From Candidatus Ferrigenium altingense (GTDB lineage: Bacteria > Pseudomonadota > Gammaproteobacteria > Burkholderiales > Gallionellaceae), in assembly GCA_020621985.1 (NCBI GenBank), contig JAHRYS010000001.1, positions 461,737-525,736 of the forward strand: a DNA stretch of 64,000 nt, in the 5' to 3' direction. Position 1 is the stretch's first letter. Each line of letters opens with the position of its first letter. The position numbers were made by a program, and so were the translations under genes. The notes under the pieces are model-generated. The model did not search any database and was not told the DNA's origin. It was given only the letters and a program-made list of their open reading frames with translations. This document shows, piece by piece, positions 58,892 through 64,000 of the stretch.

Positions 58892-58958
58892 TGCCTTTTT
58901 ATTGTGATTGACCATAGCACACAACCCTACTACAATCTCCCAAATTGGGAGGTTAGGT

Positions 58959-59267
58959 ATGCGGGTGATTGCCAAGAGCACATTGGTTAAATTCTGGAAT
59001 CAGCCGGAATATGCGGATTCAAAGGGCGCTTTGCAAAGCTGGTACGACGAGGCGGCCAAAGCAAGCTGGGGCAGTCCGCAGAACATAAAGGATCAGTACC
59101 GAAGCGCGAGTATTTGCGGCAACCAACGTGTGGTGTTTAATATCGCCGGGAACAAGTATCGCCTGGTTGTAGAAATGCAATACCGAGCCGGAATGGTGTG
59201 GGTGAAGTTCGTGGGAACCCACGCACAATACGACAAAATCAACGTGGAGACCGTCAATGAATATTAA
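58959..59267 (+). CDS. higB: HigB-like mRNA interferase toxin
   Basis: MRVIAKSTLVKFWNQPEYADSKGALQSWYDEAAKASW...NQRVVFNIAGNKYRLVVEMQYRAGMVWVKFVGTHAQYDKI. Confidence 0.9.
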   Translation: MRVIAKSTLVKFWNQPEYADSKGALQSWYDEAAKASWGSPQNIKDQYRSASICGNQRVVFNIAGNKYRLVVEMQYRAGMVWVKFVGTHAQYDKINVETVNEY

Positions 59268-59613
59268 GCCGATCCGAAACGACGACGACTTGCGCGCCGC
59301 ATTTAAGCGGCTGGAACTCGTGTATCAGGCACAAGAGGGAACGCCGCAGGCGGATGAAATGGAAATCCTGGTGACGCTCATCGAAGCCTATGAGCACAAG
59401 CATTTCCCGATTGGCGTGGTCGATCCGGTCGAAGCCATCAAATTCAGAATGGAACAGCAGGGACTGACGCAAAAAGACCTTGAGCCCTACATCGGTTCAA
59501 GCGGGCGTGTTTCCGAAGTGTTGAACCACAAGCGACGGCTCAGTCTGCAAATGGTGAAACGGTTGCACGACGGGCTGCACATCCCGTATGAAAGCCTGTT
59601 ATCCGCTGCATAG
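59257..59613 (+). CDS. higA: HigA-like HTH (XRE) antitoxin
   Basis: FRMEQQGLTQKDLEPYIGSSGRVSEVLNHKRRLSLQMVKRLHDGLHIPYESLL; overlaps higB. Confidence 0.9.
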   Translation: MNIKPIRNDDDLRAAFKRLELVYQAQEGTPQADEMEILVTLIEAYEHKHFPIGVVDPVEAIKFRMEQQGLTQKDLEPYIGSSGRVSEVLNHKRRLSLQMVKRLHDGLHIPYESLLSAA

Positions 59614-59696: not shown

Positions 59697-61025
59697 ATGA
59701 CCGCACCAGTTTCGTTGCCAGTATCGTTGAGAGAAATTCCGCAGCACAACATCTTCCGCAAGGGCGACACCTTCGTGCTGTTCGGCGAACTGTTCGGACG
59801 GGGTTACGCCAACGGCCTGGTGAACGAGGCGCGCAAGGCGGGGATGACGATCATCGGCATCACGGTCGGACGCCGCGACGAAAACCACGCGCTGCGCGCG
59901 CTGACCGCCGAGGAATTGGCCGAGGCCGAGGCCAATCTGGGCGGGCGCATCATCAACGTGCCGCTGATGGCCGGCTTCGACCTGGACGCCCCCGCAGGCG
60001 AGCCGACCCCGACCGACCTGCTCGGCGGCATGACGCTGAAGAGCTGGCAGGAAGACAAGCTCGACTGGGCGCATGTCGAGAAGTGCCGCGCGGTCGGCGT
60101 CAAGCGCTTCAGGGATTCCGTCGCGAAGGTGATGGCCGAGCTGGATGGCATGATCGCGGACGGCAGCAACGCGTTCTTCGCCCACACGATGGCGGGCGGC
60201 ATCCCCAAGGTCAAGGTGTTCCTCGCCATTGCGAACCGCATCTACAAGGGGCGCGGCGAGCGCTTCATGTCCTCGCGCGCGCTGCTCGACAGCGATCTCG
60301 GCAAGCTGTGCCTGATGAATTTCGACGAGGTCACCGCGAACACCTTCCAGTACCTGATCGAAGGCAGCGCGGCGATCCGCGCGCGGCTGGAAAAGACCGG
60401 CGGCCAGGTGCGCTACACCGCCTACGGCTACCACGGCACCGAGATACTCATCAATGGCGACTACCACTGGCAGACCTACACCAACTATACGCAGGGCTAC
60501 GCCAAGATGCGCCTCGAGCGCGTCGCAACGGATGCCTGGGCGCAGGGCATCAAGGCCACGGTGTTCAATTGCCCGGAGATACGCACCAACTCCTCCGACA
60601 TCTTCGTCGGCGTCGAACTGTCGCTGTTCCCGCTGCTGAAGGCGCTCAAGAAGGAAGGCGGCGGGGCATGGGCCGACGCGCAGTGGCAGGCCTGCCGCGA
60701 CCTGTTGCAGGAGGGCATGTCGCTCGAGGCGCTGCTGCAGAAGATCGGCGACTACAACGCCGCCGGCGTGATGAAGGCGTACCGCAACTTCGCCGCGTGG
60801 CCGATGGACAACTCCGCGGAACTGGCCGACCTGATGATCGGCACCTCGGATGAGATCACCCAGATGCACAAGGACCGCAAGGCGCTGGTGACCGACATCC
60901 TCAGCGCGCTGGTGCTGGAGGGAACCGGGCCGCTGATGTTCGTTGAAGCCTCCCATCCTGCGGCCCCGGTGCTGTGGCTCAATCACGATGTGATCGCGAA
61001 GCAGCTGAATCTGATTCACGGGTGA
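59697..61025 (+). CDS. Conserved ~440-aa protein, possibly enoyl-ACP reductase FabMG-like family
   Basis: Well-formed CDS with terminator; family assignment from memory of similar proteins only. Confidence 0.45.
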   Translation: MTAPVSLPVSLREIPQHNIFRKGDTFVLFGELFGRGYANGLVNEARKAGMTIIGITVGRRDENHALRALTAEELAEAEANLGGRIINVPLMAGFDLDAPAGEPTPTDLLGGMTLKSWQEDKLDWAHVEKCRAVGVKRFRDSVAKVMAELDGMIADGSNAFFAHTMAGGIPKVKVFLAIANRIYKGRGERFMSSRALLDSDLGKLCLMNFDEVTANTFQYLIEGSAAIRARLEKTGGQVRYTAYGYHGTEILINGDYHWQTYTNYTQGYAKMRLERVATDAWAQGIKATVFNCPEIRTNSSDIFVGVELSLFPLLKALKKEGGGAWADAQWQACRDLLQEGMSLEALLQKIGDYNAAGVMKAYRNFAAWPMDNSAELADLMIGTSDEITQMHKDRKALVTDILSALVLEGTGPLMFVEASHPAAPVLWLNHDVIAKQLNLIHG

Positions 61026-61144: not shown

Positions 61145-62735
61145 TTATTTTCGCCAATCTTTGATATATAAAACTTTGCTATTTGAAAGCTGGAGAACAG
61201 AATGTTTAGTCATGACAGTAGCTGCGCTATCCCCATATTTTTGGATTTCATCGATTGAAATAAAAGTCTGCTTATCAGTAGAACAGTATAGAGAAATCAT
61301 CTTAGCAACAGCTTCATTCTCGATATTTTTGAATAAGAGCGAGTCGTGTATTAGAAACGGAAGCCGTGATGTAAGAAACACTGACCAGTCGAATAGGATG
61401 AGATTTGAATATGCTTTTCCAGTGCCCGTATCTTCAAAAATCTCAAATTCATAATTTGACTTGCTGAATGTTAGGTAAGGGCTTTTTCTGGTTTCACCAT
61501 ATATTTCAGAAGATAATTTTTGAAGCTTACTATTTATTAAATCCTCAATAAGTTTTAGTAGTTTATTCTTTTCTACATCCAGATTTTCCTGGGTTTGCTT
61601 TACGTCGATAGTTAACTCTTTGTTCTGATCGTGGTACTTGTTTTCAAGCTCTGCATTTCTTTTAGAGTTGGATAGCTCATATACACGATCAACCACCAGC
61701 CCGGGATTCTCCACATTCTTAAGGATTGATGAAAGCCGCTCGTCAATCTTAGCAATTTCAGCCTTTATATTAGCTTGCTCCTCTAATAGTTCACGTTCAC
61801 TGGTCTTCAGTTCCTTCCTTAAAATGACTGCGATATCGGAATGGAATTCTTCAACTTTTATAATCTTGTCATCGTAAACGTCTGGGAAGAACGCTTTCAG
61901 TGATTCGAAGTTTTTACTTTTAATATGGCGACTTTGGCTAACTGAATCCATGATTCTGGAAAGCCTGCTATCTACATCTGCCTTGCTTTGAAGTAATCTG
62001 TCCTTGTCCTCTTTGAGCTCACCTACTTCTCGATTTACGATTTCTTTGATGTTGGTAGCATAACGAGCTAAATTAGTCTTTATGTCTTCAAACTCTGAAG
62101 TGATGTTCGTTACTGAGGATACATTTTGTTTGTATTTCTTTTCGGTAATTTTTGGTATGAGGTTTTTTTTGAGGGCCGCTGACAAAGCTTTCTGATCAGA
62201 TTGTTTTTCTCTCAATAAATCAGCGAGACTTTCCAATGGGGCGTATTTTTCGTAGAGCTTAAGCATTAATGTTAAAGCATCATTTGCCTTCTGTTTTTTG
62301 TGTCCATCCAAAGGTCTTCTAGGCTCCAAGTTCTCTTTTCCCCAAATACGAGAGAAGACAGACACGATGCCTCTAAAAGTCATATCTAGAACATCAAGCT
62401 CATAGGCTGTTTTCAGAAAGGTGCGGAATTCATTTACATCAATGGGCTTAATTTCTTCATACTGATCTGTGCACATGAAAACAATCTCAGGCCGTTGTGT
62501 GTCACGACGGAAAGTATGTGTCTTTCCCCGAAATACAAACTTTACGAAGTAAGAATGATGACCCAATTCGTCAACAACATCTTTGTTGAAATTAATAAAG
62601 GAATCGCCGCCGGTCGCAAAGTCAATTACCATCAAGAACGTAGATTTACCAATCGAATTAGTCGCGACATCATCACCGAGGACTACATTTAGACCCTTAT
62701 GAAAAACGATAGGAGTGCTTCTAAGTTTATCGCAG
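61145..62735 (-). pseudogene. DUF2326/Rad50-like ABC-ATPase (ABC-3C type) truncated at its 5' end by an IS element
   Basis: Reading upstream of the annotated ORF start in frame gives CDKLRSTPIVFHKGLNVVLGDDVATNSIGKSTFLMVIDF (Walker A) and then runs into the IS end and a TAA (62768-62770) with no ATG/GTG/TTG start. Confidence 0.75.
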
Positions 62736-62800
62736 TGACCTTGCCCCCGAAAAACGTATTTCTTAACTTATGGTAGATTTCAAGTTAAGGAGACGTAAAA

Positions 62801-63100
62801 ATGACGGCAGAAAAAAGCAAGAGAGCGGCATACACACTGGAGTACAAGCTGGAGGCGGTGCGATTGGTTCAGGGCGGCCAGGCATGTTTGATGACAGCCA
62901 AAGTGCTGGGTATTCCGAAGCAGACATTGGAGAATTGGGTCAGGCAGGCGGCAAAAGGGAAGCTGGCCGGTGCAGGTGCCAAGCCGGTGAGCGCAGAGCA
63001 AATGGAGCTGGCGCGCTTGAGAGCAGAACTTGCGCGGGTCAAGATGGAGCGCGACATCCTAAAAAAAGCGACGGCGTACTTTGCGCGGGAGTCAGCGTGA
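62801..63100 (+). CDS. IS3-family OrfA (HTH)
   Basis: YTLEYKLEAVRLVQGGQACLMTAKVLGIPKQTLENWVRQA ... ERDILKKATAYFARES. Confidence 0.95.
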   Translation: MTAEKSKRAAYTLEYKLEAVRLVQGGQACLMTAKVLGIPKQTLENWVRQAAKGKLAGAGAKPVSAEQMELARLRAELARVKMERDILKKATAYFARESA

Positions 63101-63993
63101 AGTACGCCTGGATTGAGCGGCATAAAAATCGTTGGCCGATCACCCTGCAATGCGAAGTGCTGAACGTCAGCGCGAGCGGATACTTTGAGTATCAGCGTCG
63201 CAAAGGTTCTGGACACCCCGCGACGCCTGGCAAGCGCATCAATGATGAAGCCCTGCTGGTTCACATCAAGGCAGCGCATGCCGCCAGCAAAGGCGAATAC
63301 GGCTGGCCGCGAATCTGGCAAGAACTCCGTGCCAGTGGTGTGCGTGTCTGGAAAGAACGGGTTCGGCGGCTCATGAAGGAACACGGCATCAAGGCACGAG
63401 GAAAGCGTAAATTTGTTGTTACCACCGACAGCAAGCATAACCTGCCGATCGCGCCGAACTTGCTCAATCGCAACTTCCAGCCTGATACGCCCGACTGTGT
63501 ATGGACTAGCGACATCACCTATATCCAGACCGATGAAGGCTGGTTGTATCTGGCTATCGTCCTTGATCTGTACAGCCGTCAGGTAGTCGGCTGGAGCATG
63601 CAAGCCCACATGCAGACCCGCTTGGTGACGGATGCGCTCAGGATGGCATGGTTCAGGAGACGACCGGAGCCCGGGCTGATCTTCCACTCGGATCGGGGTA
63701 GTCAGTATTGCAGCCACACATTCCAGCAAACGCTGGTTGAATACGGCATGCAAAGCTCAATGAGCCGCAAAGGGAACTGCTGGGACAACGCGCCAACGGA
63801 AAGCTTGTGGGGGTCATTGAAGGTGGGACGGTTGTACGGCATGCGGTTTGAAACACGGCGCCAGGCGATGGACGAGGTGATTGACTGGCTGACGTACTAC
63901 AACCACAGAAGGCTGCACTCGACACTGGGCTATATCAGTCCGATGCAGTTCGAGAAAAACTGGTTGGCGGCACAGTTGAAGGATGCCGCATAA
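63097..63993 (+). CDS. IS3-family OrfB transposase (DDE), expressed as OrfAB by -1 frameshift
   Basis: TSDITYI, HSDRGSQY, APTESLWGSLK; reading frame is -1 relative to OrfA with AAAAAAAG at 63061-63068. Confidence 0.95.
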   Translation: MKYAWIERHKNRWPITLQCEVLNVSASGYFEYQRRKGSGHPATPGKRINDEALLVHIKAAHAASKGEYGWPRIWQELRASGVRVWKERVRRLMKEHGIKARGKRKFVVTTDSKHNLPIAPNLLNRNFQPDTPDCVWTSDITYIQTDEGWLYLAIVLDLYSRQVVGWSMQAHMQTRLVTDALRMAWFRRRPEPGLIFHSDRGSQYCSHTFQQTLVEYGMQSSMSRKGNCWDNAPTESLWGSLKVGRLYGMRFETRRQAMDEVIDWLTYYNHRRLHSTLGYISPMQFEKNWLAAQLKDAA

Positions 63994-64000
63994 TGAGCGT

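Follow-up and report, generated by a model that had tools for sequence, protein, structure and literature searches.

A probable ABC-3C immune operon broken by an IS3-family element in Candidatus Ferrigenium altingense

The right edge of the window (the whole stretch of 64,000 nucleotides that was analysed; C3:461737-525736 of the host assembly G000) very likely holds the wreck of an HNH-CTD11/MC7/DUF2326 operon of the ABC-3C type, in which an IS3-family element has replaced ~580 bp. ABC-3C systems have been placed within the Lamassu superfamily (PMC10586767). On the left of the element lies a DUF2326 ATPase gene that lacks its start, and on the right, just outside the window, lies a truncated HNH effector gene. 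Positions past the window edge are given here as L008 coordinates, i.e. window positions minus 54,000.

The two remnants and the intact operons

The ATPase gene (61145..62734, minus strand) is truncated at its 5' end and retains 529 codons plus the stop. Translated from 62770 to 61145 on the minus strand, the sequence gives a stop, VKKYVFRGQGH and, beyond the junction, CDKLRSTPIVFHKGLNVVLGDDVATNSIGKSTFLMVIDF, before it ends at the stop at 61145. In other words, a TAA inside the IS (62768..62770, minus strand) closes the frame upstream and is followed by 11 IS-derived codons, the eleventh of which is shared with the flank, and then by CDKLRSTPIVFHKGLNVVLGDDVATNSIGKST. At the junction, 62735 still belongs to the chromosome and 62736 is the first base of the IS, which begins with TGACCTTGCCCC. 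This bears out the sequence-only reading, in which the minus-strand frame had been extended through a Walker A motif into the IS terminus at 62736 and on to a TAA at 62768. The Walker A motif or P-loop (GDDVATNSIGKST; 62639..62677, minus strand) is intact, with N26, I28, G29, K30 and S31 invariant in the alignment, as is a Walker B-like FISIDE identified in the ATPase alignment (61247..61264, minus strand). The DUF2326 domain (PF10088, E 1.6e-19; 61181..61513, minus strand) forms the C-terminus, and the protein has the Rad50-like character of an ABC-3C ATPase. Because of this domain match and an end-to-end alignment over 529 residues, at 50% identity, with Shewanella and Nitrospirales proteins, the frame is not a chance one. 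Beyond codon 6 of the complete protein, the remnant retains every residue that is invariant across nine aligned ATPases. The ATPase also shows weak similarity, of the coiled-coil or ATPase kind, to ZorA and TrlF.

The truncated HNH effector gene (L008:10098-10594, minus strand) lies just past the right end of the IS. Its frame also runs out inside the IS, with EALYKDF followed across the junction by DLAPVIRIS and a stop, such that the HNH domain is retained while the C-terminal CTD11 fusion is lost at the IS. The remnant is 70% identical to residues 4-141 of the HNH effector of the Shewanella plasmid CP080634, or 72% over an alignment of 132 residues, and is the sole such match in the genome. 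The sequence-only reading had expected the companion genes of the ATPase beyond the right end of the IS; an HNH gene is indeed there, but it is truncated and is the sole survivor of the two companions, the middle component being absent. Neither the ATPase nor the HNH remnant contains an internal stop, and both frames are open. Where HNH homologues begin (L008:10504, minus strand), the remnant has an ATA in place of a standard start codon, preceded by an AAGGA-like ribosome site; the nearest start codon further upstream, a TTG, is at a distance of 90 bases. This is possibly a second lesion. Upstream of the remnant there is also a minisatellite of GAGCCAACG units (L008:10623-10790), and another run of N.

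Uninterrupted relatives of the operon are present in Shewanella, Xanthomonas and Halomonas plasmid records, in a Nitrospirales MAG, in Ruegeria and Robertmurraya and in two others in the class; further ones occur in streptococcal, Ruminococcus and gut phages. In the loci read, an effector gene is followed by an overlapping small gene and by a DUF2326 gene that in turn overlaps the small gene. The small gene has ~73-75 residues in most loci, and its annotation varies. The homologues tested consist of HNH_2 and CTD11 (PF20277, E 4e-28), MC7 (PF20292, E 8e-15) and DUF2326 (PF10088), which upholds the earlier assignment of the DUF2326 gene to the ABC-3C systems. The streptococcal phage version has CTD11 and MC7, and its effector part gives no HNH match. 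Six uninterrupted loci are all HNH-CTD11/MC7/DUF2326, and the two remnants have the same order and strand as the corresponding genes in the homologues. For instance, the operon on the Shewanella putrefaciens plasmid CP080634 (QYX67065-QYX67067) resembles the window locus in gene order, strand and overlaps; however, it is intact, while the window locus lacks the middle component, CTD11 and the start of the ATPase. Just upstream of the intact operon, Ruegeria has a caspase-like gene (L036:2930-3877) and Shewanella a CHAT-domain gene (L042:2865-3896).

Comparison with uninterrupted homologues, which the sequence-only reading had proposed, delimits the loss. In the alignment of six intact operons, the positions that correspond to the broken ends of the remnants are 579, 579, 579, 582, 582 and 581 bp apart. 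The missing stretch comprises ~115-121 effector residues (essentially CTD11), the whole MC7 gene, which the intact homologues carry where the IS now sits, and ATPase codons 1-6, which encode MLTEVR in Shewanella. Uninterrupted homologues start with MLTE(V/I)R, and their next residue is the one at which the ATPase in the window begins. The “decapitation” of the ATPase is a matter of six codons only, and the larger loss is in the neighbouring genes. Elsewhere in the assembly, which is ~81% complete, there is no MC7, no CTD11, no second CTD11 effector and no second DUF2326 gene.

The arrangement of effector, middle component and SMC-like ATPase is shared with Lamassu type II/DdmABC of Vibrio cholerae, and both are ABC-3C systems. 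By contrast, the parts differ in that DdmABC has a Cap4 nuclease and a DUF6521 middle component, whereas the system in the window is of the HNH and MC7 type. The PADLOC models for LmuB and LmuA find nothing in the remnants to E 0.1. The PADLOC candidate PDC-M68 (A+B) weakly matches both remnants (B, E 6e-13; A, E 1e-5) as well as the intact homologues, but with scores far under those expected of true members of the model, and the middle component is matched by no PADLOC model.

The IS3-family element and how the operon broke

The first 1,265 of the 1,297 bp of the IS occupy 62736..64000 (plus strand), starting with the left terminal inverted repeat (62736..62773, plus strand). The remainder lies past a gap of 10 N (L008:10066-10097) and ends with the right inverted repeat GGGGCAAGGTCA, the last base of which is L008:10097. 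A domain search identified orfA with HTH_Tnp_1 (62801..63100, plus strand), and orfB with the rve integrase core (63098..63993, plus strand) is in the frame of the ORF 62770-63993. Between orfA and orfB there is an A7G run (63061..63068, plus strand), which, going by the IS3 family in general, is the probable -1 frameshift site. With orfA/orfB, HTH and DDE (rve) domains, this slippery site and imperfect terminal repeats, the element has the features of the IS3 family. Six full copies in the genome bear identical ends and are identical across the 1,265 bp compared; once the duplicated 55 bases at the gap are removed, the window copy is 1,297 bp long and, base by base, identical to three other complete copies. 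Target-site duplications (TSDs) of 3 bp, within the 3-4 bp usual for the family, flank three further copies (GTT, AAC and GTT). At the window copy there is no TSD, the flanks being CAG and AAA.

Because there is no TSD and ~580 bp are missing, the operon was not broken by a simple hop, but by an insertion plus a deletion of ~0.58 kb, or by two insertions with the piece between them lost or unassembled. Thus, the earlier claim of inactivation by transposition holds in that an IS3-family element breaks the gene, but not in the form of a simple insertion; the sequence past 64000, where the sequence-only reading had proposed looking for companion genes, a TSD and the N-terminal codons, contains the companion HNH gene but no TSD, and the IS stands in place of those codons. 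The absent TSD and the missing 580 bp are compatible with an IS-adjacent deletion, and also with recombination of two IS copies that flanked the lost piece. Both processes are known causes of missing TSDs, in the IS3 family as well (PMC11708052). The IS-adjacent deletions made by the IS3-family element IS150 in the Lenski lines (PMC11708052) resemble the window in that a single IS copy remains, a TSD is absent and neighbouring DNA is gone. However, the window lost merely ~0.58 kb in comparison, and its event is deduced and not directly observed.

The IS also contains a break in the assembly. Exactly at the window edge (64000), 10 N stand within the IS, and the sequence that follows repeats the preceding 55 IS bases (L008:10001-10065), as is characteristic of scaffolds joined within a repeat. 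Because of the 10-N gap and the exact 55-bp duplication, any reading across the right edge of the window must allow for a gap, and because the gap is inside the IS, the ATPase and HNH flanks are linked by scaffolding and gene content and not by unbroken sequence. It follows that two IS3 copies might bracket the missing 0.58 kb, with the assembler having dropped the MC7/CTD11 fragment and written a gap of 10 N in its place. There would then be no deletion, and the 580 bp might still be present between the two copies without having been assembled. In addition to the gap and the duplicated 55-mer at the right end of the IS, several observations agree with this: a missing TSD is expected if the left and right flanks stem from different insertions, the assembly may lack short contigs, and the sequence identity of the six full IS copies is as would be seen for collapsed repeats. 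We nevertheless regard it as unlikely, although a serious contender, because MC7 and CTD11 are untraceable anywhere in the assembly and the element would have had to insert twice, independently, within 0.6 kb.

Very unlikely, in our view, is a false scaffold join, in which the HNH and ATPase remnants would derive from different loci, each with the same IS. The missing TSD is compatible with such a join, as is the AAA in the right flank of the window copy, which equals the AAA in the left flank of the copy on contig C7. However, the remnants are neighbours from one operon type, are on the same strand and in the right order, and each break off at the IS end that faces them; moreover, the interval between the broken ends is constant in the six homologues. 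We retain one broken operon, with the IS in place of ~580 bp, as the preferred reading. When the HNH remnant and the C7 flank were read as the true junction, the frame stayed open for ~40 residues, but the result is unlike CTD11; the C7 flank more plausibly belongs to the end of an unrelated gene, and we take the AAA pairing to be a chance match.

Further observations concern other copies of the IS. Two other full copies are without a TSD, one on C8 (L009; CAG/ACA) and one on C7 (L011; AAA/GGC), which suggests that other parts of the assembly contain IS-linked rearrangements or misjoins. The left flank TTG at the right end of C8 (L003) pairs with the right flank TTG at the right end of C3 (L017) as a matching 3-bp TSD, suggesting that contigs C8 and C3 join via one further IS copy. 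The end of C3 (G000 C3:779643-781652; L017, L032) repeats the final 85 bp of the IS ~24 times head to tail, and this array is very probably an assembly loop and not biology.

Origin, function and present state of the system

The operon was probably gained horizontally, since the gene is absent from all of the congeneric genomes sampled (0/36). Judged from the remnants themselves, its breakage is probably recent: they are without internal stops and the ATPase retains its invariant residues, as fits a recent event.

Wherever this has been tested, LmuA, LmuC/MC and LmuB are all required (PMC10586767). In ABC-3C systems, the Rad50/SMC-like ATPase is likely the sensor and acts with a small middle component, while a variable C-terminal domain of the effector presumably docks it (PMC10586767); recent work has reported release and assembly of the effector upon activation (addendum in PMC12409362). 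By analogy, the Rad50-like DUF2326 ATPase and the MC subunit of the intact operon would sense foreign DNA, and sensing would release or activate the HNH nuclease held via CTD11. The nuclease, once unleashed, would bring about abortive immunity, as in other Lamassu systems. As it now stands, the locus is predicted to yield no working complex: it has lost the linker and the docking domain of the effector, and its ATPase gene offers no start codon ahead of the P-loop. Judging from these lesions, the system is almost certainly dead.

The missing ATPase start had already been described in the sequence-only reading, and we find the same: from 62770 to the P-loop, there is no ATG, GTG or TTG in frame, the IS portion included, and the earliest possible start is a TTG (62633..62635, minus strand; first base at 62635) that follows the Walker A lysine. 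The uninterrupted homologues, in turn, start before the P-loop. Both objections that the sequence-only reading had foreseen, homologues starting past the P-loop and a start supplied by the IS, are thereby answered in its favour. It is thus extremely unlikely that a functional fusion or a re-initiated short ATPase is produced and still active: the frame is open for 11 residues into the IS end and the native codons lost are only six, but translation could begin only past the Walker A lysine, the locus lacks MC7 and CTD11, and all the homologues examined start ahead of the P-loop. We also consider it quite unlikely that the IS-mediated loss was selected for silencing a costly or self-toxic immune module and, as part of the same reading, that the HNH domain, without CTD11 and with an IS-encoded tail, persists as an uncoupled nuclease or as raw material next to an ATPase intact save for its start.

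Neighbourhood and significance

The locus would record, down to the single base, how an ABC-3C immune operon died in a genus whose other sampled species have none, and it would exemplify immune modules that are gained and then lost to transposons. The loss mechanism is already well known and the event is ordinary, so the general interest is modest. The debris appears fresh enough to identify the exact module that was destroyed, i.e. a nuclease, a small linker protein and an ATPase. The comparison also yields a set of intact HNH-CTD11/MC7/DUF2326 operons, plasmid-borne and chromosomal, with a CTD11/MC7 variant in phages, that can be used for testing the function of this little-studied subtype.

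The broken operon lies in a stretch bounded by fabMG (window 59697-61025) and by a djlA-like gene (L008:15816-16643). Two related species have other ATPase modules at this place, one PADLOC PDC-M22A/B (G375; L072) and the other an SMC/Lamassu-like ATPase of 879 residues (G385; L070). Among the fabMG loci of 17 relatives, fabMG and the djlA-like gene are close together only in these two. The stretch is possibly a small defence hotspot, as judged from three genomes. Beside fabMG, at window 58908-59613, there is a HigB/HigA-type toxin-antitoxin pair, which is conserved in the related genome G376 (L071).
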